From a virus, in the IMG/VR virus record IMGVR_UViG_3300025874_000006, positions 87,104 to 151,103 of that record: DNA of 64,000 nucleotides; one strand, written 5' to 3'. Position numbers and translations under genes: made by a program. Shown here in pieces: positions 7,942 through 26,919 of this stretch. A model generated the notes under the pieces. The model ran no database searches. It had not been told where the DNA came from and saw only the letters and a list, made by a program, of their open reading frames with translations. Numbering within the stretch: position 1 is the first letter of the stretch; every line of letters starts with the position of its first letter.

Positions 7942-10900
7942 TTATTCCTCTAGTTGTGCAACACGGTTGCGCAATGATTGTATTTCTTTGATTAACATTG
8001 GGACTAGCTTGCTGTAGTCCACACCCATCATCTCTTCTGAGTCTTCTGGTACTGATACAGATTCCGGTGCTACCTCAAGTAGCTCCTGTGCCACCATTCC
8101 GTACTTCTGGTGTGACCCGTCAGCTTTCCAGTCAAATGAACGTACTTGGATAGCGTCAATGTCGTCAGAAGCAGAAGGGGCATCTACGATGTTTTCTTTG
8201 GCTCGCTCGTCAGAAGTCGTGTTAAACAAAATCTGAGAAGTTCCATGCTGAGTAATAGACCCAAGTTGAGAGGTGTTATAAGTGAAAGCCATAAAGAGGC
8301 TGCCCGACCCAGTGCCATTAGCATGACGAACATAAATATTAGAGTCAGCCGCTTGTCCAGAAAGTGATATTCCAGATTGCGCACCCGGCCCTTCTACAGT
8401 ACCGCCCACCAACAAAGCGCCTGAGTTATTAATAGTCACAGCAGTATTCCAGCTTATAGCTGAGTTTGCTGAACCTGAGGCGGCTACTTTAAACTCTTGC
8501 TTACCATCAGCAGTATGTGCAATCTGAGCGGAAGTATTGGTGTTTATACGTTTCCAAGAGCCATCATAATATGCGTTCGTATTAAACCAAGTTGAAGTTC
8601 CGCCCGATTCACCCGCAATAGAAGAACCTGTTCCTACCCGTAGAACTTTAAATACAGAAGACCACGCCTCTGGAGTTACACCAAGACCCAAGCGACCTGC
8701 GCTATCCAGCCTAGCGCGTTCTGCGCCACCAGTACTGAAGCCAAGAATGTCAGCGCCGCCGAAGAACAGACCAGTGTCGGTGTCTACATGGCTTGTAATA
8801 GATGGGTTGCTATTTTCTCCAGCGCCTGCTATTACTTCGCCTGATAGGAAGATGTCTTTGAAGCGATACGCTGCCGCGCCTAACGATTCTGTTCCATCAC
8901 TGAGAGCAGCAGTTTCATTCGTTGGGTAGATTGCATTAGTAGTAAAATGCAGACCTGCGCCACTTGCGTCTGCCCTGTAAATGTAACTGGCTTGCACTGC
9001 GCCTGATAGGTAGAGGTTTTTGAACCTATGACTAGAAGCTCCTAAATCAATAGCGGCATCTCTCTGTGCGCCATTGGCGGTTGCAGGATAAATACCGTCA
9101 CCACCACCTGCAAAGTTTAACCCTACATCATTACTCACAATATAAAGGTTTCCTGCGGCAGCACCAATACTACCTACGGCTGCACCGTCTTTCATCCACT
9201 CAGAAATTGTGCCGGCAGAACCTGTCCTGTTAAATGTAGTTACAACATTACCGACACGAGTTGCCTCAATCTTACCCTTGGTTCCTTCAAGTCGTATGCC
9301 TTGCGTTCCGATATCTGTTGTAAGTTTACCCACCAACAGGTTGCCTTCGCCATCAATTCGGGCGCGTTCTGTTGCAGCACCACCAGTAGCAAACTTAATA
9401 TGGTCAACGTTTTCAGCAGACTTTGTAGAAATTAACAGGCTTCGCTCTGTGGTGTTGTAAGTAAAGCCAGCGTTGTAACTGCTATTTAAATACCATCCCC
9501 ACGTTTGATCAGCAAATCCACCATCAAGGTTATAGGTGGGGTTTGTCTGCCCTGCAATACCCACGCGGCCTGCGCTGTCTATGCGCATTGCTTCTACTGG
9601 AGAAGTAGTCCCAGCAAGCCCTTGAATTAAGTTGAAAGTCATAGCCGCGTTATTAGAACCACCATTCCAAGTACCAATGCCTTCAACATCAATAGACCCA
9701 ACAATACCCGATGAGTTTGTTGAATTGTCATCAGAGTAAAACTCAACAGAGCCTATCGTTGGGATGGTATCAATGCCTGTGGCGCTTCGTAAGCGTAGTC
9801 TAGCTCCGTCTGCATTGGACGAGTCTTTTAAATCAACTAGCCTTGCAGGCGAACTAGTACCAATACCCACGTTTTGAGATGAGTCTATCGTGATAGCTGG
9901 AGAAGCACCCGTTGCTAACTTCATAGTGTCTGTATTGTGGTCGTAGCTTACATAGCCTCTGTATCTTTCATTGCCACTTGTTCCGTCTGCAAATAAAAGA
10001 TAATTGGTATCTGTTGTAGCATTTGACCTGATGGTGATACCGCCTAAGTTAACAGAAGAATGCACTACTAGCTGTGGAGAAAAGTAACTTGAAGGACTGC
10101 TAGTGCCGATACCCACGTTGCCTGCGCTGCTCAAGGTCATCACTGTCTTATCTAAAGAGCTTGCGTTAGACAACCTAAAGTTAATGCTCTGACCAACAAC
10201 ACTGTGGTCAATATAGGATGCGCCTGTTGGTTTAAAACGGATATAGTTATTGGCGTATTCAGTGTCATTAGTACCAACCTTGAGCAAGCCTGAAGTGTTT
10301 ACGTCACCTGTTACGTCTAGAGATTTGTTGAGATCCCAAGTTTGGTTAGACTGGTTCCAAAGCATAGAGGCACCAGAACCGTCAACTACGATACCTGAAC
10401 CACCTGATAGTGATTCTAGTTGACCATGTCCTACAGTGATGGTCTTGTCTGCAACATCTAGGTCAGTAACATTGTACTGGTTAATACCACCACTAAGATT
10501 CAAAGAACCTGTAAGTGAAAGGTCACCTGTTATGATAGTGTCTGCGTCAACGTTGACCGCGTCAGAACTTTCTGATACACTAGGAAGACCAATGTCACTT
10601 GGAGTAGATGCAGTAGCATCTTGACCATCTTGACCAGCAGGGCCAGTTGCACCAGTTTCGCCCTGTGGGCCTTGTGGGCCAGTAGAACCTTGTACACCAG
10701 CAACACCGGCAGCACCAGTTTGTCCCTGAAGACCTGTTAGACCTTGTGGGCCTTGTGGGCCTTGTGGGCCAGTAGCACCAGTCGGGCCTGCTGGGATATT
10801 TGCGATAGAAGCGTTCAGTTCATTAACCGCTCCAATGATAGTAGTTGCGTTGGTATCAAGAGAACCCGAACCTATAGCTGTCTGTAAAGCAGTCACCGCA

Positions 10901-11172
10901 GCAGATGTGTTTGAAATTAAAGTTTGTAGGTCACCGTCTGCCGATGAAAACGCAGCAACAATTTCTTGGAGAGTATCCAGTTGTTCTGGCGAACTTCCCA
11001 ATATTGCATCAATTTGTGACTGAAGACCATCAATTTCCGAAGAAGAGACCGCTTCACCAGTGACAGCAGCTACAAGAGTACCATCAGCATTAATTACTAA
11101 TTGTCCTCCTACTACGACTTCACCAGTAATGTCGACACCATTCTGTATTCTAAATTTTTTGTTAAAAGCCAT
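7942..11172 (-). CDS. tail fibre with collagen-like stalk and S74 chaperone
   Basis: 1,076 residues. Residues 1-75 share the attachment module of the neighbouring giant fibre ([29 protein letters not shown]). Residues about 129-185 are collagen-like Gly-x-y triplets. A long sheet-rich shaft follows, with repeats of VGIGTSSP and ERARIDSAGRLG type. The C-terminus (about 987-1076) is a peptidase S74 intramolecular chaperone: SDERAKENI, then [15 protein letters not shown], and a coiled coil ([13 protein letters not shown]). In the family this domain trimerises the fibre and cuts itself off at the Ser of SDER (Ser987 here). Codon use in the shaft differs from the N-terminal part, suggesting mosaic origin. 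Confidence 0.9.
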
Positions 11173-11201
11173 TTCACTTTACCTTTTAGAATGAATTAAA
11201 G

Positions 11202-11221
11202 GGGGGTGGAAACCCACCCCC
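11202..11221 (-). terminator. terminator-like hairpin
   Basis: GGGGGTGG and CCACCCCC form a perfect 8-bp GC stem with a 4-base loop directly after the stop of the 1,824-residue fibre gene. The following CTTTAATT is a weak U-tract. It separates the two fibre genes. Confidence 0.75.
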
Positions 11222-11237
11222 GATTTTATGGTTTATG

Positions 11238-14200
11238 TTATACGTCAACGTAAGAAGCAGATACCGATACTACTGCACCAGCAATTACCGATGTATAAGT
11301 CAATTCAACACTTGAACCATTGATTTGAACATCAGTATCACCCAACATGTTAACACCTGTGAATAGGATACCATATTCAGTGATGTATGGGTTTGTCCCG
11401 TCATGAATAACTAGACATTCGCGAGTTTCGAATTCGCCATTGCTTTCTACAGTAACAATGTACTTGGCAGAACGATATAGGGCTTTATTGAATGAAGAAA
11501 CTACTGTAGCAGAAGTTCCAGCAATAATGTCATTACCCTGTTCGAATACCTTGATGTTGTCCGCAAGAGTCTCTAGACCAACAGACTTAGGATCTAGTAC
11601 ACCAACCGAGTTAGTAGACTGAGCGATTACAACCGCCTGTGTACCGACTGGAAGTGCAGCATTGAAGGTGATTTGTTGTGCAACAGCATCAATCGAGTAG
11701 TGAACCGATGGATCCTGAATAACACCACCAACGAATACCATTGCGTTAGCTTCTTGAGTGTGGAAGTCCAAAGCAAACATAGACTGTGCACCGTCACCAG
11801 AGATGACCTGACGTTTTGCGTCATTGAATGCCAACTCTTTAGGGTCAACAAGTTCCATAGCAGAACCGTCAGTCTTAACACGAGCAACAAAACCGTTCTT
11901 ATCTACTAGGTCTGTATCGACAACGTCTTCTAACTCAACGAACTTCTTACCAGTTGATACTGATAGAACACCAGATGCACTGTTGTAAGATACGTTACCT
12001 TCACCGTCTACGTCTGTGACCGCGATTGAAGCACGTGCACGAGCAGGAGTGAAGTATTCGTTATCACCTTCGGAAAGGTCAGTAGTTGAGAATACAGAGA
12101 TATGTTGAGCAGCAAGACCGCCATCCAATTGACCTTTGTTAACTGCATCAGAAGAGAACGTACCGTTTGCAAGACCACCGACCTTGTTACCGGACATGTC
12201 TAGTACACCAAACATCGCATCGCCAGACTTAGAAACCTTACCGTCAATCTGAGTCTGTAGACCCGCATCGGCAGCAGCGAACTCACCACGGATCAAACCG
12301 TCTTGGGTTGCACGAGTAGTTGCTTCTGTTACGAGGTCATCAGCGTTAGTAGCGATATCTGTTTGGTTCTGAGTGATCAGACCAGTTAGAGTACCATCTG
12401 CACTTTGGAATGCAGAAACGATTTCAGTCAATGAATCGAGAGCAGCACTGTCAGTGTTTGAAGTGATGAAGTCAATTTGATTCTGAAGTGAACCTTCAAC
12501 ACCTTGCGCACGTGATGACTCATCAGAAATCGCAACAGCGTTTGCAGTGATTAGTACACCGTTTGCAGCTTCAGCAGCAGTCGCACGACCAACTTCTGTT
12601 GCTAGGTTAGTTGTTAGTACACCTTCAGCAGCAGTAGCACGAGCAACTTCAGCATCCATTTGTGATTGCAAGTTTGCATCACCAGCGATACGAGAATTGT
12701 CACCAGACTTGATTGCAGCGTCTAACTTCCTGTCTGCATCTGTTAGAGATGTAGCTAGGTCAATATAGTTAGTAGTTCCACTATCTGGAGAAGCGTAAGT
12801 ACCGTCAGCATTTAGACCAGCAGCAGTTTGTGTTGCAGTCATTTCTGTTTCAAGTACAGTAGCACGAGAATCAAGAGCGTTATCAGCAACTTGACGTGTG
12901 TTTGCTTCTGTAGAAATCTTACCGTCTAGTACGTTATCTGCATTGTCACGTAGAGTTGCTTCGTTAGCAACGATACCGTCTGCATAAATCTTAGCAGTAG
13001 CCTCAGCATCATCTGCTTCTGATTCCGCATAAGACTTAGCAGATGCAAGAACAGCAGCGTCACGAGCAATGTAGTCCGCTTGGTCAGTTACACGATGTGC
13101 AGCTAGGTCAGAACGGATTAGTGAATCAGCGGCAGTTCGGTCAAGAATTTCTGTAGCAAGTGCGTCACTGTCAGCATCAGCACGAGCAACAGCAGATGCA
13201 AGTCCGGAAGTGTTAGTAGAAGTTTCAGAGTGAAGTTCATCGATTGCACCAGTGATAGACTGAGCAGTAGTATCAAATACACCGTCACCTAACTTAGTTT
13301 CTAGAGCGTCAATGTCTGCTTCGTTAACAGTTAGACGACCACCTTGTAGTGTCTGTTCTGTTTCAAGAGCAGTAGCACGAGTTTCTAGACCAGTAGCACG
13401 ACCTTCAACATTGTCCATCTCAACTTGTAGAGTAGCAACTTTACCAGTTTCTGCATCTAGTTGAGTGTGGAGTTCGTTTACAGCTGTAGTAACATCAGTA
13501 GCAACAGTTGCAAGAGTTGAAGAACCCATCTGAGTTTGTAGAGTATCAACATGACCTTCTTCTGTAGAAACACGTGATTCTAGTGAAGTTGCACGACCTT
13601 CTACTGCGTCCATTTCAGACTGTAGAGTGTCTACATTTGCTTCTTCTGTAGTAACACGAGCAGCAAGAGCGGCAAGAGCAAGAACATCTGCGTCAATCTC
13701 ACCATGCAATTCATTGATTGCAGCTGATAGATCAGATGCTACAGTTACTAGGGTTGCAGTACCTTGCTTAGTTTCTAGTGCATCGATGTCTGTTTCATTA
13801 ACAGTTAGACGACCTGATTGTGCAAGTTGTTCTGTTTCAAGAGCAGTAGCACGACCTTCGACTAGAGTTGCACGAGATTCTACGTCAGTTGCACGTACTT
13901 CTAGTGCATCAATGTCTGTTTCGTTAACAGTTAGACGACCAGAGTTTGCAGTAATGATGTTTTGAATGTCTGAGTCAGCATCTTCGAACGCAGCAACGAT
14001 TTCTTGAAGTGTATCAAGAGTCTCTGGAGAAGTACCGATGATTGCATCAACACGACCAGTTACACTGTCAACGTCTGTACGTAGACCAGCTTCAACACCA
14101 GTTGCACGAATTACTTCAGCAGTAATCTGTGATTGGTTGTCTGCATGGTCAGCAGCTTGTAGAGTTTGTAGAGCAAGAATCTCACCGTCATTTGCGGTGA

Positions 14201-16712
14201 TTTGTGCTTGGTTTGAATCAACGTCTACACGTAGACCCGCTTCAACACCAGTTGCACGAATTACTTCAGCACCGATTGCTAGTTCGTTAACTACTTCAGC
14301 AGCTTTAGCACGTGTAACTTCAGCAGTGATTTGTGCTTGGTTATCATCATGGTCAGATGACTGAAGAGTTGCAAGAGCAAGAATATCAGAATCGTTTGAA
14401 GTGATTTGTGCTTGGTTTGAATCAACGTCTGTACGTAGACCAGCTTCGATACCAGTTGCACGAGTGATTTCTGAAGTGATTTGAACCTGTAGGTCTGAGT
14501 CAGCATCTTGGAAATCTGTGATAGCACCATCTACACGTAGGTCTAATGCAGCTTCTGCCGCTAGAGCACGTGCTCGTTCAGTGTTAATCGCACCTTGGTT
14601 AGCTGAGATGTTTACAGTATTAGTGTTAACGTCTGTACGTAGACCAGCTTCAATCGCTTCTGCACGTTGACGTTCTGTAACAACAGCAGTAGCATTAATA
14701 GCTTCCGCAGCAGTAGCACGAGCAACTTCAGTAGTGATTTGTGACTGTAGACCAGAATCACCAGCAATACGACTAGCAATTTCAGAAGTGATTTGACCTT
14801 GTAGGTCTGAATCGCCACCAGCGCGAGCAACTTCTTCTGCACGTAGGTCGATTTCATTCTGTGCAGCAAGAGCTTCAACAGAATCCATATCGCCTTCTAG
14901 TACTGTAGTACGTAGAGATAGTGCATTGTCAGCAGCCAAACGAGTTGCTGCTTCAGCAGAAACCTGTGCGTCTGTGTATGCAGTTGCCTGTGTTTTAGCA
15001 GTTGCGATACGAGCAGTAACAGTGTTACCAACAGTGCCGTCTACAGATGCGTCACCGATAAGTGCAGCGTCTTGTGCGTCAGCATGTGCCTGTGCAGCTG
15101 CCTGATGTGAATCTGCCTCTGCGTCAGTGTACGACTTAGCAGATGCAAGTGTTGCAGCGTCAGCAACAATTCGAGCAGCTTCTTCAGCAGTAATCTGTGA
15201 TTGTAGACCAGTGTCCGCAATTGCACGAGTTGATGCTTCAGTGTCGATGTTAGTTTGTAGAATACCTTCAGCAGCTTCTGCACGTGCTTTCTCAGTAGAG
15301 ATTGCAGTAGTGTTAGAAGAAACAAGAGCAGACATATCGCTATCAGCATTTTGGAATGCAGAAACGATTTCTGTCAGTGAGTCTAGTGCAGCTGAGTCAG
15401 TGTTTGAAGTGATGAAGTTGATTTGAGTCTGCAAATCAGCATCTTGTGCAATACGAGCACTTTGTTCAGCAACGATTGCGGCAGTGTTAGCGTCTTCAGC
15501 AGCAGTAGCACGAGCTTCTTCCGCATCAAGTTCAGTCTGTAACGCAAGGTCACCAGCGACTCGTTCGAGTTCTTCAACAGTTAGTTCTGCTTCTGCTTTA
15601 GCAATTGCTTCTGCTTTTGCAGTTGCAATGCGGTCAGTAACAGTATTGTTTGCAGTACCATCAACAGTATCGTCACCGATGAGTAGGTCATCATGCGCCT
15701 TTGCAGATACTAGAGTTGCAGCATCTCCAGAAATGATGTCAGCGCCTAAATCAATACGAACCTGAGTATCGGCAATAGCACGTGCGTTAATTTCGTCTTG
15801 TAGGTTTTGTGCGTTTGCAGCTTCTGCACCAGTAGCACGAGCAACTTCGTCTGCAAGATCCTGAGTAAGGACACCTTCAGCAGCAGTAGCACGAGCAACT
15901 TCAGAAGTAATCTGAGACTGGAGTGATATAGATGTTGCTTCTTCAGTTGTTAGACGTGCAGATAGTGCATCGTCAGCTGAAATACGTGCAGTCTGTTCAG
16001 CAGTAACCAATGAAGTGATTGCAACTTCAGCAGCAGTAGCACGAGCAGTCTCAACAGAAATCGCAGTTGCGTTTTCAGTTTCTTTGTTGATTGCACGAGA
16101 AACTTCCGAAGTAATTGCAGCAGAGTTAGCAATGATTGAAGCAGATAGTACGTCATCCGCGTCTTCGAACGCTTTGATTACTTCTACGAACGAATCGATT
16201 GCAGCTGAATCAGTGTTGCTTAGGATGTCATCGATACGACCAGAAAGGGCTGTATCAGCAGACTGAGATGAAGCTTCAATTGAATCTTCCCGAGCTTTCG
16301 CACGAGTTTCTTCAGCAGTGATGTTTGATTGTAGTGTAATATCTGCTTGTGCACGTGTTGATGCTTCAGCAGCAATATTAGACTGTAGTAGTTGTTCTGC
16401 AACTGTCGCACGACTTGTTTCTACCGCTACCGCGTCTGCGATATCTTGAGCAACAGCAGCCTGAGCGCGAGCAGGTGTAAAGTATTGATTGTCACCTTCT
16501 TGCAAATCATCTGTTGAGAATGAAGAGAAGAACGCGTCTGCTGTAATTTTCTTTAATGAGTCAGAACCGACATCATAAAGAAGAGTAAAACAGTCCGCTG
16601 GGTTGATCATACCTGTAAGGGTTGATTGTCCCTGTACTGCACTTTCGTCAAGTTTGGTATTGATTACCGCCTTATCAGCTAGTGCTGGGGATTTAATCTG
16701 CCTAAATGCCAT
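11238..16712 (-). CDS. 1,824-residue coiled-coil tail fibre
   Basis: The start is supported by AGGAG 8 bases before the ATG. Residues 1-100 are a globular head (FRQIKSPALADKAVINTKLD; NQYFTPARAQAAVA). Residues about 100-1,480 are an almost unbroken series of heptad-like modules ([58 protein letters not shown]), typical of long fibre shafts. The NEYFTPARARASIA motif recurs near residue 1,550. The last ~300 residues are sheet-rich (AMVFVGGVIQDPSVHYSID; SVSASYVDV). Probably a long trimeric tail fibre that places a tip on the host surface. No S74 domain, so a separate chaperone may be needed. No exact TATAAATA lies directly upstream. Confidence 0.85.
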   Translation of the reverse strand: MAFRQIKSPALADKAVINTKLDESAVQGQSTLTGMINPADCFTLLYDVGSDSLKKITADAFFSSFSTDDLQEGDNQYFTPARAQAAVAQDIADAVAVETSRATVAEQLLQSNIAAEASTRAQADITLQSNITAEETRAKAREDSIEASSQSADTALSGRIDDILSNTDSAAIDSFVEVIKAFEDADDVLSASIIANSAAITSEVSRAINKETENATAISVETARATAAEVAITSLVTAEQTARISADDALSARLTTEEATSISLQSQITSEVARATAAEGVLTQDLADEVARATGAEAANAQNLQDEINARAIADTQVRIDLGADIISGDAATLVSAKAHDDLLIGDDTVDGTANNTVTDRIATAKAEAIAKAEAELTVEELERVAGDLALQTELDAEEARATAAEDANTAAIVAEQSARIAQDADLQTQINFITSNTDSAALDSLTEIVSAFQNADSDMSALVSSNTTAISTEKARAEAAEGILQTNIDTEASTRAIADTGLQSQITAEEAARIVADAATLASAKSYTDAEADSHQAAAQAHADAQDAALIGDASVDGTVGNTVTARIATAKTQATAYTDAQVSAEAATRLAADNALSLRTTVLEGDMDSVEALAAQNEIDLRAEEVARAGGDSDLQGQITSEIASRIAGDSGLQSQITTEVARATAAEAINATAVVTERQRAEAIEAGLRTDVNTNTVNISANQGAINTERARALAAEAALDLRVDGAITDFQDADSDLQVQITSEITRATGIEAGLRTDVDSNQAQITSNDSDILALATLQSSDHDDNQAQITAEVTRAKAAEVVNELAIGAEVIRATGVEAGLRVDVDSNQAQITANDGEILALQTLQAADHADNQSQITAEVIRATGVEAGLRTDVDSVTGRVDAIIGTSPETLDTLQEIVAAFEDADSDIQNIITANSGRLTVNETDIDALEVRATDVESRATLVEGRATALETEQLAQSGRLTVNETDIDALETKQGTATLVTVASDLSAAINELHGEIDADVLALAALAARVTTEEANVDTLQSEMDAVEGRATSLESRVSTEEGHVDTLQTQMGSSTLATVATDVTTAVNELHTQLDAETGKVATLQVEMDNVEGRATGLETRATALETEQTLQGGRLTVNEADIDALETKLGDGVFDTTAQSITGAIDELHSETSTNTSGLASAVARADADSDALATEILDRTAADSLIRSDLAAHRVTDQADYIARDAAVLASAKSYAESEADDAEATAKIYADGIVANEATLRDNADNVLDGKISTEANTRQVADNALDSRATVLETEMTATQTAAGLNADGTYASPDSGTTNYIDLATSLTDADRKLDAAIKSGDNSRIAGDANLQSQMDAEVARATAAEGVLTTNLATEVGRATAAEAANGVLITANAVAISDESSRAQGVEGSLQNQIDFITSNTDSAALDSLTEIVSAFQSADGTLTGLITQNQTDIATNADDLVTEATTRATQDGLIRGEFAAADAGLQTQIDGKVSKSGDAMFGVLDMSGNKVGGLANGTFSSDAVNKGQLDGGLAAQHISVFSTTDLSEGDNEYFTPARARASIAVTDVDGEGNVSYNSASGVLSVSTGKKFVELEDVVDTDLVDKNGFVARVKTDGSAMELVDPKELAFNDAKRQVISGDGAQSMFALDFHTQEANAMVFVGGVIQDPSVHYSIDAVAQQITFNAALPVGTQAVVIAQSTNSVGVLDPKSVGLETLADNIKVFEQGNDIIAGTSATVVSSFNKALYRSAKYIVTVESNGEFETRECLVIHDGTNPYITEYGILFTGVNMLGDTDVQINGSSVELTYTSVIAGAVVSVSASYVDV

Positions 16713-18099: not shown

Positions 18100-18456
18100 T
18101 TACCTTGTTACCGAAGGATTAACTTTTATTTTACCTTCCAACACTCTTTCTATAATAGTGTTGCCTTCTCCATCGACATAACTTATCTCGACATCATAGA
18201 CATATCTACCACGAGCAGATAGTAAATCGGTTTGGAGGTTAGATAGGGATATAGTAACGACACCACTTGTTGAGGGTTCTGCTACGATAGCAGTGAAATC
18301 AACAGTATTGTCGGCAGTGCTTTTGAAGGTTTTCTTCATTTTAGCAGCAACCGAATACCCAGTGAGGTCTTTTGTTGATTCGTCAGGGTCTACTAGTTCT
18401 ATTTGCAAAGCAAAATCAGAACCCTGATCGATTGTGAAATCTTCGTAAGTCGCCAT
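18100..18456 (-). CDS. small Ig-like virion protein
   Basis: 118 residues. Begins MATYEDFTIDQGSDFALQIEL and continues with LTGYSVAAKMKKTF and RYVYDVEISY. This is the beta-sandwich pattern of the BppU-like N-terminal domain found beside tail fibres in many phages. First gene after the late promoter at 18497-18504. A structural role is inferred from pattern and neighbours. Confidence 0.65.
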   Translation of the reverse strand: MATYEDFTIDQGSDFALQIELVDPDESTKDLTGYSVAAKMKKTFKSTADNTVDFTAIVAEPSTSGVVTISLSNLQTDLLSARGRYVYDVEISYVDGEGNTIIERVLEGKIKVNPSVTR

Positions 18457-18496: not shown

Positions 18497-18504
18497 TATT
18501 TATA
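18497..18504 (-). promoter_or_regulatory. T4-type late promoter
   Basis: Exact TATAAATA on the minus strand, 41 bases upstream of the 118-residue structural gene and after the oxygenase-like gene ending at 18534. Confidence 0.75.
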
Positions 18505-18533: not shown

Positions 18534-19241
18534 TTATTCCGCAGAAGAGATATCTGCTAGAACCATCTCACGGAAATCTGCTGATTCGTCTGACCAGTCG
18601 AATACGTAAGATACTGTGCAACGCCAATCGTCTGTAGATGCAGCGTGATACATTACTTTGTCTGACTCATCGTAATGTCCAAAGTATGCTGCTTTACAAG
18701 TCCACTTACCAGCTTCATCTTGACAACGTACCACTTCCTTTGTTTCAGGATGGATGTAGTCGAAGTAACCAGAACCATCTTCTGAGTAAGAGAAGATTAA
18801 GTTGAAGCCTGGAGCGTTAGCATTGTTGTGCCAAGAGATGAATCCACCTGGCGGATATACTGCTGCAAGAGCATTATGTTTAACGGATAAGAAGTTCATC
18901 ATCTTATCGTTTAAGTCACGTAGGTGATGAGTCATGTCACGTTTGAAGACAGGGTCAGCGTCCTTCTCAAACATTTGATGAGCACGGTCAGAAAGTTTGA
19001 AGTTGTAACCGACCAACTGGTCTGGGAAACCTTCGTGTTCTTTTCCTTGCCCAACAATCTCTTCCATGTGCACAGGGCCTACGTAAAAATTACGTTGACG
19101 TTTATGTTGTGCAGAAGTAAGGTGACAGTTTTCTTCAAAACCGTTTATGGTATGCAACTTGGAGTATTCGTTTAGAATTTCAAGCAGTTCAGGGTTATTA
19201 ACCTCAACATGCTTGAGATATTGGTCGTTTACCTGTGTCAT
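18534..19241 (-). CDS. 2OG-Fe(II) oxygenase-like protein
   Basis: 235 residues with the layout of the prolyl-hydroxylase-like double-stranded beta-helix: AAVYPPGGFISWHNNANAPG (His138), then FSYSEDGSGYFDYI, then VMYHAASTDDWRCTVSYVF (His199, Arg207). In the family, HxD plus a distal His bind iron and the late Arg or Lys binds 2-oxoglutarate. Here the first motif is H-x-N (His138, Asn140), which is unusual. Start overlaps the stop of the glycosyltransferase-like gene (ATGA), so the two are translationally coupled. The substrate is unknown; a virion protein modified together with the glycosyltransferase is one possibility. Confidence 0.7.
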   Translation of the reverse strand: MTQVNDQYLKHVEVNNPELLEILNEYSKLHTINGFEENCHLTSAQHKRQRNFYVGPVHMEEIVGQGKEHEGFPDQLVGYNFKLSDRAHQMFEKDADPVFKRDMTHHLRDLNDKMMNFLSVKHNALAAVYPPGGFISWHNNANAPGFNLIFSYSEDGSGYFDYIHPETKEVVRCQDEAGKWTCKAAYFGHYDESDKVMYHAASTDDWRCTVSYVFDWSDESADFREMVLADISSAE

Positions 19242-19975
19242 ACGATTGGAGTATCCTTATTTAAACCTGCTGAGAAGTGACGTATAATCACTGGGCCCGT
19301 TTCAGGTTTTGTGATCGCCCAGTTAAGAGCGTTATAATAGTTCCACCTCAAGTCGTCATCGAAGATACCAACCTTGAGATCCTTATATTTTTCTTCTTTG
19401 TTGGTCAACCACCAGAGAGAGAACTGATCCCAAGACTTGAGACTGTCCGCATATCCTTTTGGCCACCAAGTATCGTTCATTTGTCTGAACGTTAAGTCCC
19501 ACCAGTCATCCATGAATTCACGGACAATCGGTTTAGACATATCATATAAACAGACAGCACCACATAATGTGAATTTAGAAACTCCCTCTGGAGTATCAAA
19601 ATCTCTTTCCGCGTAAATATAGTCACGGTCATCTGTAAGGGCGGTGAATACCACATCGTGGTCTTTCATCTCATCCCATACCTTGGTGATGTCTTCATGC
19701 TCAACTTCCATGTCAGCATCAATATACATCGTTATATCGTATGGTGTTTTTGCCATACCATACAACTTAGCGCGATAGTGGTCGTCACATAATATAATAT
19801 CATCCGCAACGTCGCGACCACGGTCATCTAGGAACCTTTCTTCAGTTACTAGACATATTTTACAATCGTCTTCTGGTTCATAGTAATCTCTTAGAGACTC
19901 TGCCAGATTGATTGCATACAAGTAAAAGTTGCGTTTCTTAGACGCAACGATTATAAATCCTTTACTCTTTTCCAT
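19238..19975 (-). CDS. glycosyltransferase-like protein (GT-A type)
   Basis: 245 residues from the ATG at 19975, chosen over an upstream in-frame TTG because GAGG lies at the right distance. N-terminus KGFIIVASKKRNFYLYAINL and the DxD motif in YDITMYIDADMEV (Asp86, Asp88) fit a GT-A fold. Such enzymes move a sugar from a nucleotide donor, with the metal held by DxD. Later motifs WDQFSLWWL and VIIRHFSAG support a GT8-like family. It overlaps genes on both sides within the fibre region. The target could be a virion protein, host glycan or DNA; unproven. Confidence 0.7.
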   Translation of the reverse strand: MEKSKGFIIVASKKRNFYLYAINLAESLRDYYEPEDDCKICLVTEERFLDDRGRDVADDIILCDDHYRAKLYGMAKTPYDITMYIDADMEVEHEDITKVWDEMKDHDVVFTALTDDRDYIYAERDFDTPEGVSKFTLCGAVCLYDMSKPIVREFMDDWWDLTFRQMNDTWWPKGYADSLKSWDQFSLWWLTNKEEKYKDLKVGIFDDDLRWNYYNALNWAITKPETGPVIIRHFSAGLNKDTPIV

Positions 19976-20429
19976 CTGTCTCGGCCTCAAGCTGAAGTTG
20001 GTCTTGTAAAATCATAATTGACCACATGTCCACTTCAATCCTTGATTTTGCCCGGCGCAACTTTGCCTTCAACTTACGGTTCTTAGAGTTTTTAATCTCT
20101 TCAACTTCAAATGCTTCCAACTTATAGTTGAATAACTTCTCAAGCTTTCGTGCCTTTTGATGTTCATCTTCACGAATTTTTTCTTCTTCAACTTGTGCCT
20201 TCTTACGGACAACCCTATCTGTAGTTTCCCTATCGACAGCGTCTTCACCCAAGGCATCAATTACTTCATTGAATAATTCGTTCTCACTACCGTCCTTATC
20301 GTGACGATGTAAAAACATCTGTTGGCGTGTAACTCGACCAACGTCATCTTCAAGTTCTAGGATACAGTTCAGTTCTTTCTTTTCTTCTGTTTCCCAGAAT
20401 GCATTATCCATCCACTGCTTACGACTCAT
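19962..20429 (-). CDS. conserved T4-like phage protein, unknown function
   Basis: 155 residues, strongly helical and charged. N-terminus SRKQWMDNAFWETEEKKELN is followed by LELEDDVGRVTRQQ and a long Lys/Glu helix (KARKLEKLFNYKLEAFEVEE, KNSKNRKLKAKLRRAKSR). Similar proteins occur in cyanophages, as I remember them, without known function. Its 3' end overlaps the glycosyltransferase-like gene by 14 bases. It follows the hairpin at 20484-20505 and has no exact late box upstream. Confidence 0.65.
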   Translation of the reverse strand: MSRKQWMDNAFWETEEKKELNCILELEDDVGRVTRQQMFLHRHDKDGSENELFNEVIDALGEDAVDRETTDRVVRKKAQVEEEKIREDEHQKARKLEKLFNYKLEAFEVEEIKNSKNRKLKAKLRRAKSRIEVDMWSIMILQDQLQLEAETDGKE

Positions 20430-20483: not shown

Positions 20484-20505
20484 GTGGGTCAAATGAATGA
20501 CCCAC
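20484..20505 (-). terminator. terminator-like hairpin
   Basis: Perfect 8-bp stem GTGGGTCA/TGACCCAC with a 6-base loop after the stop of the tetrad-repeat gene (20540). The following TTATCTCAAC is not a strong U-tract. Confidence 0.65.
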
Positions 20506-20539: not shown

Positions 20540-23500
20540 TTAAGCAACCCGTACGTATAAGGTATATGTTTCTGGGGTGTCGAATGACGTTCCACTAATC
20601 GTCTCACCGGCATAATTACCAGTGAATGAACGAGAGTAATTACCAGCGAAGTCATTGTTATAGTTTCCACCGAATGTACGAGAGTAGTTACCCACGAAGT
20701 CACCAGCATATGCAGATGCACGATTGCGAGAGTAAACACCAGTATATGATGAATTACGTATTCTTGCGTAAGCTGATACGCGAACTCTAGCGTAATCACC
20801 AACGTAATCAGTGGAGAATGTGCCAGCATACTCACCAACAAATCCACGTGAATAGTTTCCTACAAAGTCACCTGTGTAATCGCGAGTGTAATTACCAATG
20901 TAATCACCAGTGAAGGTGGTTGCATAATTACCAGTGAAGTTACCTACATATTCGCGAGAATACGTTCCTACGTAGTCACGTGAGTAGTTACCAGTGAATG
21001 TATTGGAATATGTTCCACTATATTGACCAGAGAAGTCACGTGAGTAGTTACCAATGTAGTTACCACCAAATGCACGAGTGTAAGTACCAGCATAAGCTCC
21101 AGCATACTCACCAACAAACGTTCGGTTATAGGTACCAGTGTACTCACCAGTAAAGCCGCGGGAGTAGTTGCCTACGTACTGACCAGAGAATTCACGTGAG
21201 TAGTTACCAATGTAGTTACCACCAAAGTCACCAACGTAATTACCGACAAAGTTGCCAGCGAAGTCACGAGCATAATCCCCCGCGAAAGTACGGGAGTAAT
21301 TACCGGCAAAGTCACCTGCGAAATCAGTTATACGGTCACGAGAGTATGTTGATGCTCGGTTATTCACATATGAAGACACACGAGTGGTAATATATGCGGA
21401 GTAACGAGTACGAGCAGAGGCACGGGTATACTCACCAATGAAGTCTCCGGCATACTCACCCGCAAATCCACGTGCGTAGTCACCAACAAAATCACCAGCA
21501 AAACCACGAGCATAATTACCTACGAAGTTCCCACCGAAGTTAGTTACTCGGTCTCTAGTGAATGCACCAGAATAGTCTGTAATGCGAGTACGTGCGTAAG
21601 ATGAAGAACGATTGAGAATAGAGTCACGAGTACTTGTGCGAGCATAGTTACCTACGAAGTCGCCAGCATAGTAACCGACACGAGTATAGTTACCAGTGTT
21701 GGTAAATGTCTGAACACGGTTACGGGTATATGCAGCTGCATAGTTGCCAGTGTAGTATAATGTGCGAGTATAGTAACCAGTATTTGTAGAAGTACGAGTA
21801 CTTGTACGAGCATAAGCTCCATTATAAGTGCCAGTGCGGGTACGAGCATAGTCACCGACATAGTACAATGTCGCTGCACGGTTGCGAGAATAGTCACCAG
21901 CGTATGAGAACGCACGGTTACGAGTGTAGTTACCAGTATAGGTGGCACCACGAGTACGAGCATAGTCACCAGCGAAGTTACCAGTAAAGTTAGTTACACG
22001 GTCACGTGAGTAGTTACCAGTATATGACGCGGCACGAGTACGACTATAGTCACCAACAAAGTTGCCAGTATATACGGTTGCACGATTACGTGAGTAATTA
22101 CCTACATATGAGAATGCGCGGTTACGACCATAGTTACCAGTATAGGTGGCACCACGAGTACGGCCATAATTACCAGCATAGTATAAAGTGCGAGTGTAGT
22201 TACCAGTATATGACGCGGCACGAGTACGACCATAGTTACCAGTATAGGTGGCACCACGAGTACGAGAATAGTCACCAACGTAGTACGCTGTTACGGTGTT
22301 ACTAACATAGTTACCAATGTAGTTACCAGCAAAGTTGCCAGTAAAGTTGCCAGCATAACTACCACCGCCGGGAGGAGTCGTTCCGAATCCAGTACCCCAA
22401 TAATAAGAATATGCGGCCGCATAATTAGTATCCCTATAGTAAGTATTTGAACCATATGGGTTAGCAACTACAACGGATGTTACTAAAAGGGCATCAGAAT
22501 AATGACTGAAGTACTGACTATATCTCAGGTATCCACCAATGTGTATCTTAAGCGTACCTGAGTTATTTGTTGAAGCGAAAACTTCCCAAGATGTGCCTGG
22601 GTTGGTCGATGAGTTACCAGTATATGCATATTGACCATTAGTACCACCAGTCGTAGACGTGCGAGTAGAAGTACGAGTACTTGTACGAGAATAGGTAGTA
22701 GATCTAGTGTAATATGAAGTTGCGCCTACACGAGTTCGACCATAGTTACCAACGTAAGAAGCAGCCCGGTTACGAGAATAGTCACCAACGTAAGAAGCAG
22801 CACGTGCACGAGTATATGTTCCAGTACCTGTCCCAGTTCTTGCGTAATCACCAACGTAAGACGCAGTACGGTTACGAGAATAGTTACCGGCATAAGAACC
22901 AGTACGAGTGCGACCATAGTTACCTACGAAGTCACCAGTGTAGTTTGTTACACGAGTTCGACCATAGTTACCAACGTAAGAAGCAGCCCGGTTACGAGAA
23001 TAGTTACCTACGAAGTTACCGGCATAGTCTGTTACACGAGTTCGACCATAGTTACCAACATAAGATGCACCACGTGCACGAGTATATGTTCCACCATAAG
23101 TGCCAGTACGAGTTCGACCATAGTTACCAGTGTAAGTGACACCAGTGGTACTTGTGCGAGCGTAGTTACCCACGTATGAGAATGCACGTTGACGAGCATA
23201 GTTACCTACGAAGTCGCCTGCATAGTACAATGTACGAGAGTATGCTGGAGTAGCAGAGTAGTCCGCTGAATAGTTACGAGCATAGTTGCCGGTAAAGTCA
23301 CCAACATAATATAGTGTACGAGTGTAGTTTAGTGTACGAGTAGAAGTTCTAGTAGAAGTTCTTGCGTATTCGCCTACGAAGTCACCGATATAGTTACCAA
23401 CAAAGTTTCTTGCGTAGTCACCTACGAAGTCGCCAGTAAAGTTACGAGCGTAATTACCTACGAAGTTACCAGCAAAGTCAGTTACACGGTCACGTGCATA

Positions 23501-25204
23501 TGCAGAGTAACGTGTGCGTGTTGATGTGCGAGCATAAGCTGAGTAACGAGTTCTAGCAGAAGCGCGAGTAGAAACACGAGCGTAGTCACCGATAAAGTCT
23601 CCGGCAAAAGCACGAGAATAGTTGCCTTCGAAATTTCGTGAATAATCACCCACGAAAGTCCTTGCATAGTTACCTACAAAGTTGCCAGCAAAGTTAGTAA
23701 CACGATTGCGGGTGTATGCAGATACTCTAGCGCGAGAGAAGACCCCTGCGAAGTTAGTTACACGATCACGAGAATATTCGGTGATGCGTGTACGAGTATA
23801 GTCTAGTGAATAAGAAGAAGTTCTTGTACGACTATAAGTGCCTGCATAAGCAGACCCACGAGTGCGAGAATAAGTCCCCGCATAAGCAGATACTCGGTTA
23901 CGTGTATAAGTGCCACTATATGTTCCGGCATATGAAGAAACTCGTATGCGAGTGTAATCAGCGGAATAGGTTGAAGCACGAGTGCGTGAATATTCACCTG
24001 TGTATGTTGATACTCGGCCTCGTGTATAAGAAGATGGACGATTACGAGAATAAATTCCACTAAAGTAACTTACACGGTCGCGGGTATATGTTGATACACG
24101 TGCACGACTATAAGTTCCAGTAAAAGTTGCAGCGAAAGCAGTCAATCGATTACGTGAGTAAGTTGAATTACGGGTGCGTGAGTAAGTTCCAGCGAAAGTT
24201 GAGTTACGTGTTCTTGTATACTCTCCGGTAAAGTCACGGGAGTAATTACCTCCAAAGTCACGCGAATATACACCAGTGTACTCGCCTACAAATTCACGAG
24301 AGAAGTCTGCAATACGATTAGTGGTGTAAGAAGAAACTCGGTCACGGGTATAGGCTGATACTCTAGTACGCACATACGCAGATGCACGAGTACGTGAGTA
24401 ATCGGCAGTAACGATTGAACGTTGAGTATTCTCAGCAGAACCACGTGGGGCCCATGTACCGGATGAAGTTGGAACACCTTGTGCAGATGAACGCAACTGG
24501 TATGAACCAATTTCACCTGCTGTCGCTCGAAGGGATTTAGCACGTTGACCAAGAGTGTACTTGATCTCTGCGTCTGACATTTCTTTTAGACCATTAAACG
24601 ATGAGGTACCGTCATAATCGGTCGCAACTGGACGAACTGTTGTAACACCAGCTGGTGGCGTCGCAAGAGTAACTCTTTTCCAGATATGATAATTTACTGA
24701 CGTACCGTCTCCCAGAGTATTGGAAAACACAGTATCAATGTGTTTAGCCCAGTCACCGCCTGGGGATGTGACAGAAAGTTCGAATGCACCTTGAAGACCT
24801 AAAGTCTCTAGATTTTTTAGTGCACGGTTGGTTAAGTTATCCAAATCTGCGTCTACCATTTCGTAGAAGCCTGGGTTTGGTTCAACTTCGTAATAACCGA
24901 CAGGACGGACAAAATCAGTACCAGTTTCACTTGCAGAACCACCTACCTGTTTAAGGGTAGTAGTTACTGTAGTACCTGTGATGTTTGACAACGGGTGAGT
25001 ACCCTCTGGTTCATTGTAGTACGTATCTACATATGAACCGATGCTAACACCATCAGTTAAACTGATATCACCGACATCACCAGCAGAGGCCTCTGCTAGT
25101 GCTTCGCCCACCTTTACAGCGAGATACATCTCTTCTGTAGGTGTTAATTCCTGTAGGTCACCATTAGCATTTTTAATTTTTAGTGGTATACTAGATGCTG
25201 ACAC
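20540..25204 (-). CDS. giant aromatic-x-(G/R)-x repeat protein, probable fibre
   Basis: 1,554 residues from a GTG at 25204 that follows GAGAG. The N-terminal ~270 residues are globular (PLKIKNANGDLQELTPTEE; IGSYVDTYYNEPEGTHP; NYHIWKRVTL) and match the style of conserved cyanophage virion proteins, supporting this start. Residues about 271-840 and 955-1,535 are a period-4 repeat: Tyr, Phe or Arg, then any residue, then Gly or Arg (or Ser), then any residue (for example NFVGNYARNFTGDFVGDYAR). A globular island (about 841-955; TSWEVFASTNNSGTLKIHIG) interrupts it. A late promoter precedes the gene. I know no named fold for this repeat. Probably a long fibre or sheath-like filament. Confidence 0.8.
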   Translation of the reverse strand: MSASSIPLKIKNANGDLQELTPTEEMYLAVKVGEALAEASAGDVGDISLTDGVSIGSYVDTYYNEPEGTHPLSNITGTTVTTTLKQVGGSASETGTDFVRPVGYYEVEPNPGFYEMVDADLDNLTNRALKNLETLGLQGAFELSVTSPGGDWAKHIDTVFSNTLGDGTSVNYHIWKRVTLATPPAGVTTVRPVATDYDGTSSFNGLKEMSDAEIKYTLGQRAKSLRATAGEIGSYQLRSSAQGVPTSSGTWAPRGSAENTQRSIVTADYSRTRASAYVRTRVSAYTRDRVSSYTTNRIADFSREFVGEYTGVYSRDFGGNYSRDFTGEYTRTRNSTFAGTYSRTRNSTYSRNRLTAFAATFTGTYSRARVSTYTRDRVSYFSGIYSRNRPSSYTRGRVSTYTGEYSRTRASTYSADYTRIRVSSYAGTYSGTYTRNRVSAYAGTYSRTRGSAYAGTYSRTRTSSYSLDYTRTRITEYSRDRVTNFAGVFSRARVSAYTRNRVTNFAGNFVGNYARTFVGDYSRNFEGNYSRAFAGDFIGDYARVSTRASARTRYSAYARTSTRTRYSAYARDRVTDFAGNFVGNYARNFTGDFVGDYARNFVGNYIGDFVGEYARTSTRTSTRTLNYTRTLYYVGDFTGNYARNYSADYSATPAYSRTLYYAGDFVGNYARQRAFSYVGNYARTSTTGVTYTGNYGRTRTGTYGGTYTRARGASYVGNYGRTRVTDYAGNFVGNYSRNRAASYVGNYGRTRVTNYTGDFVGNYGRTRTGSYAGNYSRNRTASYVGDYARTGTGTGTYTRARAASYVGDYSRNRAASYVGNYGRTRVGATSYYTRSTTYSRTSTRTSTRTSTTGGTNGQYAYTGNSSTNPGTSWEVFASTNNSGTLKIHIGGYLRYSQYFSHYSDALLVTSVVVANPYGSNTYYRDTNYAAAYSYYWGTGFGTTPPGGGSYAGNFTGNFAGNYIGNYVSNTVTAYYVGDYSRTRGATYTGNYGRTRAASYTGNYTRTLYYAGNYGRTRGATYTGNYGRNRAFSYVGNYSRNRATVYTGNFVGDYSRTRAASYTGNYSRDRVTNFTGNFAGDYARTRGATYTGNYTRNRAFSYAGDYSRNRAATLYYVGDYARTRTGTYNGAYARTSTRTSTNTGYYTRTLYYTGNYAAAYTRNRVQTFTNTGNYTRVGYYAGDFVGNYARTSTRDSILNRSSSYARTRITDYSGAFTRDRVTNFGGNFVGNYARGFAGDFVGDYARGFAGEYAGDFIGEYTRASARTRYSAYITTRVSSYVNNRASTYSRDRITDFAGDFAGNYSRTFAGDYARDFAGNFVGNYVGDFGGNYIGNYSREFSGQYVGNYSRGFTGEYTGTYNRTFVGEYAGAYAGTYTRAFGGNYIGNYSRDFSGQYSGTYSNTFTGNYSRDYVGTYSREYVGNFTGNYATTFTGDYIGNYTRDYTGDFVGNYSRGFVGEYAGTFSTDYVGDYARVRVSAYARIRNSSYTGVYSRNRASAYAGDFVGNYSRTFGGNYNNDFAGNYSRSFTGNYAGETISGTSFDTPETYTLYVRVA
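20614..24390. repeat. 12-bp-period coding repeat region
   Basis: About 3.4 kb of degenerate 12-base units, interrupted by a unique island at roughly 22340-22680. Plus-strand reading shows endless variants of TAGTTACCNNNNAAGTCACC. The period equals four codons of the tetrad repeat. Local copies are near-identical over tens of bases, a good substrate for recombination or slippage. Confidence 0.85.
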
Positions 25205-25254: not shown

Positions 25255-25262
25255 TATTTATA
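25255..25262 (-). promoter_or_regulatory. T4-type late promoter
   Basis: Exact TATAAATA on the minus strand 51 bases upstream of the GTG start of the tetrad-repeat gene and immediately after a rho-independent terminator. Confidence 0.8.
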
Positions 25263-25330: not shown

Positions 25331-25795
25331 TTAAATATCTAATGTTGGCCATACAACATCATCTAAAGAACCTACTATTGACATATCCAAAGTCTCTGTG
25401 ATATCACGCAATTCTTGTCTATACGACATGATGGTTTGTCGTTCTTCTTCTGTAAAGGGAGAATCGACAACAAGCATCCAATCAGTCTCTATGATTTTTT
25501 GGTTGCGGACAAATCGTATTTCGTTAACAATATGTTCTATGTCCCATACCCATTCACCGTTTTCCCACGTAGCGTATACATTTGGTTTTGGTGGAACCTC
25601 AATAAACATCTGGTCATCTTCGTCCCAGACGCGAGTATTCATGAACTCCATCTCGCTAAGGCCTTCCAAATCCCAAATCCTATGAACTAGTCTATCATCG
25701 TCTACGGAATGACCGTCTTCCGGATACATTCCATTATCCATGTCGGTTCTTACGATTACGCCTGCTTCTGTATGTATGGCGACTTTAGGGTGCAT
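25331..25795 (-). CDS. tail assembly chaperone-like protein
   Basis: 154 residues from the ATG at 25795, preferred over an in-frame TTG at 25810 because GGAGAG lies at the right distance. The C-terminal segment (IRFVRNQKIIETDWMLVVDS, then EERQTIMSYRQELRDITE) matches the Phage_tail_APC pattern: R..R...L..tDW...D.p...E....yRq.LRDi. That domain is seen in small proteins encoded after tail fibres. The N-terminal half (WDEDDQMFIEVPPKPNVYA) also fits fibre-assembly proteins. Last gene before the terminator. Probably helps fold or attach one of the operon's fibres. Confidence 0.75.
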   Translation of the reverse strand: MHPKVAIHTEAGVIVRTDMDNGMYPEDGHSVDDDRLVHRIWDLEGLSEMEFMNTRVWDEDDQMFIEVPPKPNVYATWENGEWVWDIEHIVNEIRFVRNQKIIETDWMLVVDSPFTEEERQTIMSYRQELRDITETLDMSIVGSLDDVVWPTLDI

Positions 25796-25820
25796 CTTAT
25801 ATCTCTCCAATTAATAAATT

Positions 25821-26634: not shown

Positions 26635-26919
26635 TTAATTTAACCTAATCGCAACGTAACCAAAAAAGTTGGTAGATCCAGAAACGTTTTTTATAGTGAA
26701 TGAAGTGCTGGTCTTAGTGATCGTAAATGCTCTTTCAATATTAACGGTTGGGCCAATAGCATAAACGTAGTCAAACCCTGTAGGGACGCTAATCGTCTCA
26801 GAGGCCTGATTGCCTAGGAACACAGTTCCGGAAGAACATACCTTGACATAAGAATCCATATTCTCTGAGTCGAAAGCAATATATCCAGCTGCTGTCCAAA
26901 TTTTTAAACCGTAAGCCAT
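26635..26919 (-). CDS. small tail tip protein
   Basis: 94 residues. MAYGLKIWTAAGYIAFDSEN followed by repeated beta strands (TFLGN-type turns, FTITKTSTSFTIKNVSGSTN, FGYVAIRLN). The N-terminus is paralogous to the 270-residue neighbour. Good ribosome site (GGAG) and 1-base spacing to adjoining genes. Likely a small fibre-tip or cap protein. Confidence 0.65.
   Translation of the reverse strand: MAYGLKIWTAAGYIAFDSENMDSYVKVCSSGTVFLGNQASETISVPTGFDYVYAIGPTVNIERAFTITKTSTSFTIKNVSGSTNFFGYVAIRLN

Follow-up and report, generated by a model that had tools for sequence, protein, structure and literature searches.

The window, i.e. the whole 64,000-nucleotide stretch of virus record IMGVR_UViG_3300025874_000006 that was analyzed, carries a long gene for a tetrad-repeat protein, here called TET. 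A reading of the sequence alone had placed this open reading frame at 20540–25204 and named no strand; the frame exists and lies on the minus strand. The features of the locus, in the direction of TET transcription, are as follows.

25331–25810, minus: tail (fibre) assembly chaperone, directly upstream of TET (PF16778, E=8e-14; phrog_4912 tail fibre assembly, E=9e-12)
25255–25262, minus: late promoter motif of the T4 type, TATAAATA, lying ~50 bp before TET
20540–25204, minus: TET, 1554 aa, GTG start (from the ORF listing)
24419–25204, minus: TET N-terminal domain, residues 1–262, non-repetitive, family signature conserved
22691–24406, minus: TET first repeat block, residues 267–838, parity unbroken
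22364–22639, minus: TET central island, residues ~856–947, hypervariable beta domain
20603–22357, minus: TET second repeat block, residues 950–1534
20543–20602, minus: TET conserved C-terminal motif ETYTLYVRVA
20484–20505, no strand: hairpin (stem of 8 bp) in the gap that separates TET from the 155-aa gene
19962–20429, minus: 155-aa charged protein, next gene after TET
19238–19990, minus: glycosyltransferase (GT)-like protein, putative GT-A type, invariant DxD
18534–19241, minus: predicted 2OG/Fe(II)-oxygenase-fold protein
18497–18504, minus: next late promoter motif, at the boundary of the predicted TET operon
18100–18456, minus: LtfC-like L-shaped tail fibre assembly protein (phrog_3304, E=3.6e-17; PF23926 LtfC, E=2.7e-5, slightly below cut-off)

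TET is encoded in the late tail/baseplate region, as phage long tail fibres are, and its neighbourhood comprises two fibre-assembly proteins and baseplate genes. The N-terminal domain, which contains 36 invariant columns in an alignment of 18 homologues, is presumed to be the attachment end, and an ETYTLYVRVA-type ending was found in nearly all main-family tetrad ORFs that reach their own stop codon. The hairpin that follows TET has a terminator-like score on the plus strand only.

Comparison of the baseplate wedge protein of the window, which is 60% identical to that of phage C48C1 and ~32% identical to those of the cultured pelagimyophage HTVC008M and of cyanophages, groups this phage with C48C1 in a T4-like lineage. 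No photosystem D1/D2-type protein was found in the virus record. The G+C content of the window is ~43%, versus ~34% in table rows of a study of pelagimyophages (PMC7029224).

Tetrad repeats and face grammar

The sequence-only reading described about 1,150 residues of TET as following a strict four-residue period. Counted without overlap, tetrads of the form [YFR]x[GRS]x account for 984 of the 1554 residues (shuffled sequences: mean 432, maximum 492), and 1080 residues are covered if Ser/Thr is also allowed in position 1 (shuffles: mean 670, maximum 732), so that the pattern stands while the earlier count was somewhat high. Lag-4 identity was likewise elevated, at 0.185 versus 0.10 in shuffles. 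The four-residue period is present, although it is not the dominant one: Fourier analysis gave a period of 2.0 as the strongest for Tyr/Phe, Gly, Arg, Asn/Asp and Ser/Thr, with period 4 second for most of these classes. Tyr, Phe, Arg and Gly keep a single parity for ~570 residues before the island and ~545 residues after it. The TET repeats are a beta-like alternation with almost no slip.

One face of this alternation is strongly conserved. When the repeats were compared with those of five relatives, the odd residues, which form the Tyr/Phe/Gly/Arg/Ser face, were 79–89% identical, versus 47–60% for the even residues, and dN/dS values of 0.13–0.19 reflect purifying selection. Among the same sequences, the codons for repeated residues were mixed, with about half of the identical residues differing in codon, which indicates that the repeat pattern is kept at the protein level and is not simply a product of DNA expansion.

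Transitions from residue i to i+2 on the conserved face are nearly deterministic. Tyr is followed by Arg or Gly (Tyr to Tyr, 0.01 of expected; Tyr to Phe, 0.00), Phe by Gly, and Gly only by Tyr or Phe, with Gly to Arg seen 8 times (0.00 of expected). Arg is followed by Ser, Thr, Phe or Arg, and rarely by Gly (0.08 of expected) or Tyr (0.12); Tyr-x-Arg leads on to Arg-x-Ser/Thr or to Phe-x-Gly. These rules imply that the repeat is built from the words YRRS/T, YRFG, YG, FG and RS, and this one grammar accounts for the Gly-rich and Arg-rich styles that had previously been described as alternating. It also constrains, in a way open to direct testing, what is probably a new architecture of fibre, and may be useful for protein design.

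Arg makes up 12.8% of the repeats across the family and Lys only 0.2%, while Lys contributes 10 of the 19 basic residues in the N-terminal domain of the window protein, which means that Arg is specifically chosen in the repeats. This bias is what would be expected if stacking or cation-pi contacts, which the sequence-only reading had suggested, are important for the structure.

Indels and DNA-level repeats

Length variation in the family follows the tetrad. Among 216 distinct indels between relatives sharing ≥70% identity, which were collapsed by similarity of the inserted peptide only and are therefore not fully independent, 179 have a length in residues that is divisible by 4, 33 a length of two modulo 4, and 4 an odd length. 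Multiples of 8 or 12 residues are not enriched: classes 0, 4 and 8 modulo 12 contain 59, 69 and 51 indels, and classes 0 and 4 modulo 8 contain 73 and 106. Autocorrelation gives best lags that are also multiples of 4 but differ between family members. The quantum of these length changes is the tetrad, not a fixed coil.

At the DNA level, the gene is repetitive, although the single 12-bp array over 3.4 kb that had been proposed was not recovered: Tandem Repeats Finder (TRF) detected only patches, with periods of 12, 24, 36, 66, 84 and 102 bp and 68–86% match. The indels in multiples of 12 bp may owe something to slippage of the repetitive DNA and not to selection.

These data bear on the idea that the repeats form a disordered brush of Tyr/Arg stickers and Gly/Ser/Thr/Asn spacers, akin to FUS-like or FG-rich proteins. 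The repeat composition, which is dominated by Thr, Arg, Tyr, Gly, Ser, Ala and Asn and is nearly free of Lys, fits such a polymer, as does the low AlphaFold2 confidence described below. However, a sticker-and-spacer polymer has no fixed register and disorder does not demand one, yet odd indels are very rare, conservation is confined to one of the two faces, and the i to i+2 pairings follow strict rules. A disordered brush is accordingly considered improbable.

Fold of the repeats

Sequence searches of Pfam, PHROGs and the PDB yielded no match for whole TET, its N-terminal domain or its island, in agreement with the earlier suggestion that the repeat lacks a described fold, and literature searches for such a repeat returned nothing relevant. 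The aromatic tetrads matched no fibre fold in the PDB when searched with phmmer. An AlphaFold2 monomer prediction of residues 780–1554 together with 15 relatives failed on the repeats (pLDDT 22–37), a test weakened by the shallowness of the 16-sequence alignment, and a Foldseek search with the resulting 775-residue low-confidence model gave a meaningless best E of 0.28.

A monomeric beta-solenoid, comprising a new type of tetrapeptide repeat with aromatic ladders, follows the sequence-only reading, which had suggested a solenoid or a cation-pi filament. Strict parity and the tetrads themselves would suit such a fold, and the low-confidence model contains a 12-residue strand pattern, EEEEEE--EE--, at approximately residues 1300–1430. 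Solenoids of the pentapeptide-repeat type and others have a coil of fixed length, while the TET indels fall on every class of multiples of 4 and the lags vary from member to member, which disfavours a fixed coil. Furthermore, the monomer prediction provided no confident fold, and Arg and aromatic residues alternate on the one conserved face. Together, these findings make a monomeric solenoid improbable, to about the same degree as the disordered brush or slightly less so. From the failure of the monomer prediction, taken with the constraints on face and indels, we infer an obligate oligomer, and an intertwined trimeric beta shaft is modestly favoured as its form.

Known fibre repeats resemble TET only in part. 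The C-terminal triple-stranded beta-helix of T4 gp5 is a trimeric beta fibre with VxGxxxxx octads and a VxGN face periodicity (PMC4576200). The octad, with its Val and Gly, is not recognizable in TET, whose tetrads have Tyr, Phe or Arg in position 1, and the aromatic tetrads did not match gp5. The structural protein SWTG_00067 of cyanophage S-RIM2 (phrog_697, with an Mtd N-terminal domain) contains [VL]TGN/[VL]TGD tetrads and matches TET with E ~4e-7. Its tetrads are aliphatic, not aromatic, lack an Arg face and occupy only a short region, and the protein has a different N terminus and no linked gene block. Such aliphatic tetrads match gp5 weakly (E ~4e-4), in a composition-biased search whose top matches were unrelated Gly-rich proteins, so that this similarity counts as no more than a lead. 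The cyanophage [VL]TGN tetrads are the nearest repeat to that of TET and may be either its simpler cousin or a convergent form. TET also differs from collagen in lacking a Gly-x-y triplet. These tests place TET outside both the gp5 beta-helix and the pentapeptide-repeat families; it would nevertheless work like a tail fibre.

The central island

The sequence-only reading had noted a unique island in the middle of the protein, and this island is real. Its core (residues ~870–940) was modelled by AlphaFold2 as beta with a pLDDT of ~66–85. Identity within the island is 22–47% between close relatives, versus 65–74% within the repeats. Other members, including a distant one, carry an island at the same position, with the loose motif W..GG..Y.RG. 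This hypervariable part of TET is a candidate for a domain that binds receptors or adheres, and a candidate determinant of host range.

Distribution of the TET family

Relatives of the N-terminal domain were found in at least 212 IMG/VR stretches, of which 80 were kept for analysis; two MAG contigs gave matches as well. TET is real, widespread and structurally unusual: the family is common in marine T4-like phages, is unannotated, and lies outside Pfam and PHROGs. Sixty-eight distinct complete proteins with the C-terminal motif, chosen by the pattern YTLY[VCA][RK], range from 368 to 3901 aa, the shortest being one of the two halves of a gene that is split in contig L095. In that contig, the second TET copy (9997–13511) is split into ORFs of 815 and 368 aa with starts ~2.4 kb apart, due to a frameshift or sequencing error. 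Tandem TET pairs occur in several contigs (e.g. L011, L014, L018, L020, L084, L085, L087, L088, L091 and L092).

Among named phages, TET was found only in C48C1 (OQ984149, Kyanoviridae), where the hypothetical protein WJE88074.1 (3347 aa) is a direct homologue. The two share the N-terminal domain, the tetrads, the C-terminal motif, the tail-gene arrangement and the downstream block. The C48C1 protein is unannotated, comes from a record that lists no host, is more than twice as long as TET, and has approximately eight islands and one duplicated stretch. This stretch (C48C1 gene at L022 10606–20649), KTRHRSYLYYSTDTSTNQQFFEPRV...SGQY, is an exact tandem repeat of ~75 residues, which was either duplicated very recently or produced by faulty assembly. 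At the sensitivity used, HTVC008M lacks both TET and the block.

Tetrads also occur in other proteins of these contigs. Separate small tetrad proteins of 157–285 aa are encoded at L007 8045–9435, L016 5273–6530 and L006 5799–6555, one kind being fused at its C terminus to a small domain similar to the product of window 26635–26919. A second kind of large tetrad-containing protein, ~970–1460 aa as seen and with other ends, is encoded upstream of TET (L046 from 5871, L053 from 1, L071 from 4994 and L074 from 5024); the L074 copy has no Pfam or PHROG match.

A conserved gene block downstream of TET and a predicted late operon

The block of genes that follows TET was missed by the sequence-only reading and is the best clue to its biology. 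The 155-aa gene lies directly after TET in all 77 contigs that extend downstream, and the genes for the GT-like, oxygenase-fold and LtfC-like fibre-assembly proteins follow in the same order across loci. Conversely, when contigs were selected by the GT-like gene, TET was upstream in 74 of the 76 with enough upstream sequence; of the two exceptions, one starts just after a TET end and the other within the operon. One to three genes intervene between the GT-like gene and TET in the clade that is most distant. The order of the block is kept among relatives whose block members are as little as ~35–50% identical, and a search of 50,697 phage records found the 155-aa, GT and oxygenase genes in C48C1 only among named phages.

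The motif TATAAATA occurs 13 times in the window versus 2.8 times expected. The sites (e.g. 17176, 18497, 35631, 40904 and 49254) are mostly intergenic, and the motif should help to map the late operons of related phages in the lineage. It precedes TET in 39 of 48 distinct loci and the LtfC-like gene in 43 of 44, and was not found before the 155-aa (0/48), GT (0/43) or oxygenase (0/44) genes. This spacing suggests that TET and the three genes that follow form one late transcription unit.

The oxygenase-fold product is confidently predicted to adopt the double-stranded beta-helix fold of 2OG oxygenases (AlphaFold2 pLDDT 92.2, pTM 0.89). The best PDB match of the model in Foldseek was prolyl-4-hydroxylase 4j25 (E=7e-6, prob 1.00), with further matches to PHD2, AlkB and many viral 2OG oxygenases, at moderate global TM-scores of 0.3–0.5. 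No match was found at the sequence level in Pfam or the PDB, and HHalign comparison of the family with six S-RIM2 2OG oxygenases was not significant. The metal center of 2OG-Fe(II) oxygenases consists of an HxD/E...H triad, accompanied by an Arg that binds 2OG. In this family H138, H199 and R207 are invariant, while all 24 sequences have Asn at position 140 (HxN, not HxD/E). Because Asn occupies the usual position of the metal-binding Asp/Glu, catalysis is not assured.

The GT-like protein is 52–98% identical across loci, with D91 and D93 invariant. It is a putative GT-A glycosyltransferase, as judged from its sequence: PF00535 matched with E=0.0012 and 19.2 bits, below the cut-off of 23.3, and was the best match in 11 of 20 members. 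A sequence search of the PDB found no match for it. The 155-aa protein is possibly a chaperone or an adaptor.

Proposed role of TET and alternatives

TET is interpreted as the shaft of a late tail fibre that bears a hypervariable knob and is possibly hydroxylated and glycosylated by the enzymes of its operon, a reading to which a probability of roughly 55% may be given. Its components differ in strength. The assignment of TET as a fibre is quite probable in view of its late tail-region setting. Its architecture, with an N-terminal domain (putative attachment), a long repetitive shaft and a variable island (putative receptor binding), would fit such a fibre. Modification of the fibre, which is suggested by genetic linkage, is rated at slightly under an even chance.

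As proposed, TET would be a structural protein made late in infection by a marine phage of the T4-like kind. Most probably it would form the shaft of a long tail (side) fibre and be joined to the tail by its N-terminal domain. The tetrads would form an extended beta-rich shaft in which the Tyr/Phe/Arg/Gly/Ser face is packed inside or between chains and the other face (Thr/Ala/Val/Ser/Asn/Asp) points outward and can vary freely. Probably three such chains would intertwine, as in other phage fibres, and gain or loss of whole tetrads would make the shaft differ in length between phages. The islands inserted in the shaft, and the hypervariable one at its center in particular, might serve as receptor-binding or adhesive knobs. 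The co-transcribed oxygenase-fold and GT-like proteins would probably modify the fibre by hydroxylation and then glycosylation, with the 155-aa protein aiding its folding or presenting it to the enzymes. For a late fibre found with a hydroxylase-fold enzyme, a likely GT and a charged helper, the simplest account would be that the fibre is folded and modified before assembly. The operon predicts dedicated hydroxylation and glycosylation of phage fibres, which, if true, would bring posttranslational maturation into phage host recognition or gripping.

Alternatively, TET may be a plain fibre shaft, with the GT and oxygenase acting elsewhere, on the host envelope, other fibres or small molecules, and linked to TET only by operon history. 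Pelagimyophages, which are T4-like marine phages, possess a host recognition cluster with tail-region fibres and GTs, and these GTs were proposed to alter host LPS (PMC7029224). Moreover, 2OG oxygenases are commonly carried by cyanophages, and the presence of collagen-like proteins and other fibres in the same region means that linkage is not proof of TET as the substrate. This alternative is considered less likely, as the sole named carrier of TET is also the sole named carrier of the three genes, their order outlasts extensive sequence divergence, and all four genes lie within one promoter interval.

It is also conceivable that TET functions outside the virion, as a secreted or surface adhesin, an amyloid-like matrix or a host-modifying protein made late in infection. 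Curli-system genes are reported for pelagimyophages in the same study (PMC7029224). However, CsgG was unmatched in the virus record, which may be incomplete, TET lies in the tail region beside fibre chaperones, and complete members keep both N- and C-terminal domains, so that a non-virion role appears very improbable.

The preferred reading, a modified tail-fibre shaft, can be carried further, although only tentatively. TET may represent a new class of fibre, a multi-chain beta shaft with a four-residue aromatic/Gly/Arg word as its structural quantum, governed by the near-deterministic face grammar and matured by its own hydroxylase and GT from the one late operon, i.e. a phage analogue of the pathway that hydroxylates and glycosylates collagen, on a non-collagen scaffold; this extension is doubtful at present.

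Other fibre-like genes in the window

Three further fibre-like genes are encoded on the minus strand of the window. The product of 7942–11172 is a fibre with collagen repeats and, at its C terminus, a Peptidase_S74 (endosialidase chaperone) domain; the hydroxylase-fold protein might have this fibre as its substrate instead of TET. A collagen-like protein of 824 aa is encoded at 36282–38756 in the baseplate region and matches mycobacteriophage collagen-like tail proteins, probably through repeats only. The 1824-aa product of 11238–16712 contains degenerate ATAAE/ITSE-type repeats, has weak PHROG matches to proteins of unknown function, and is probably another, helical, tail fibre of the region.
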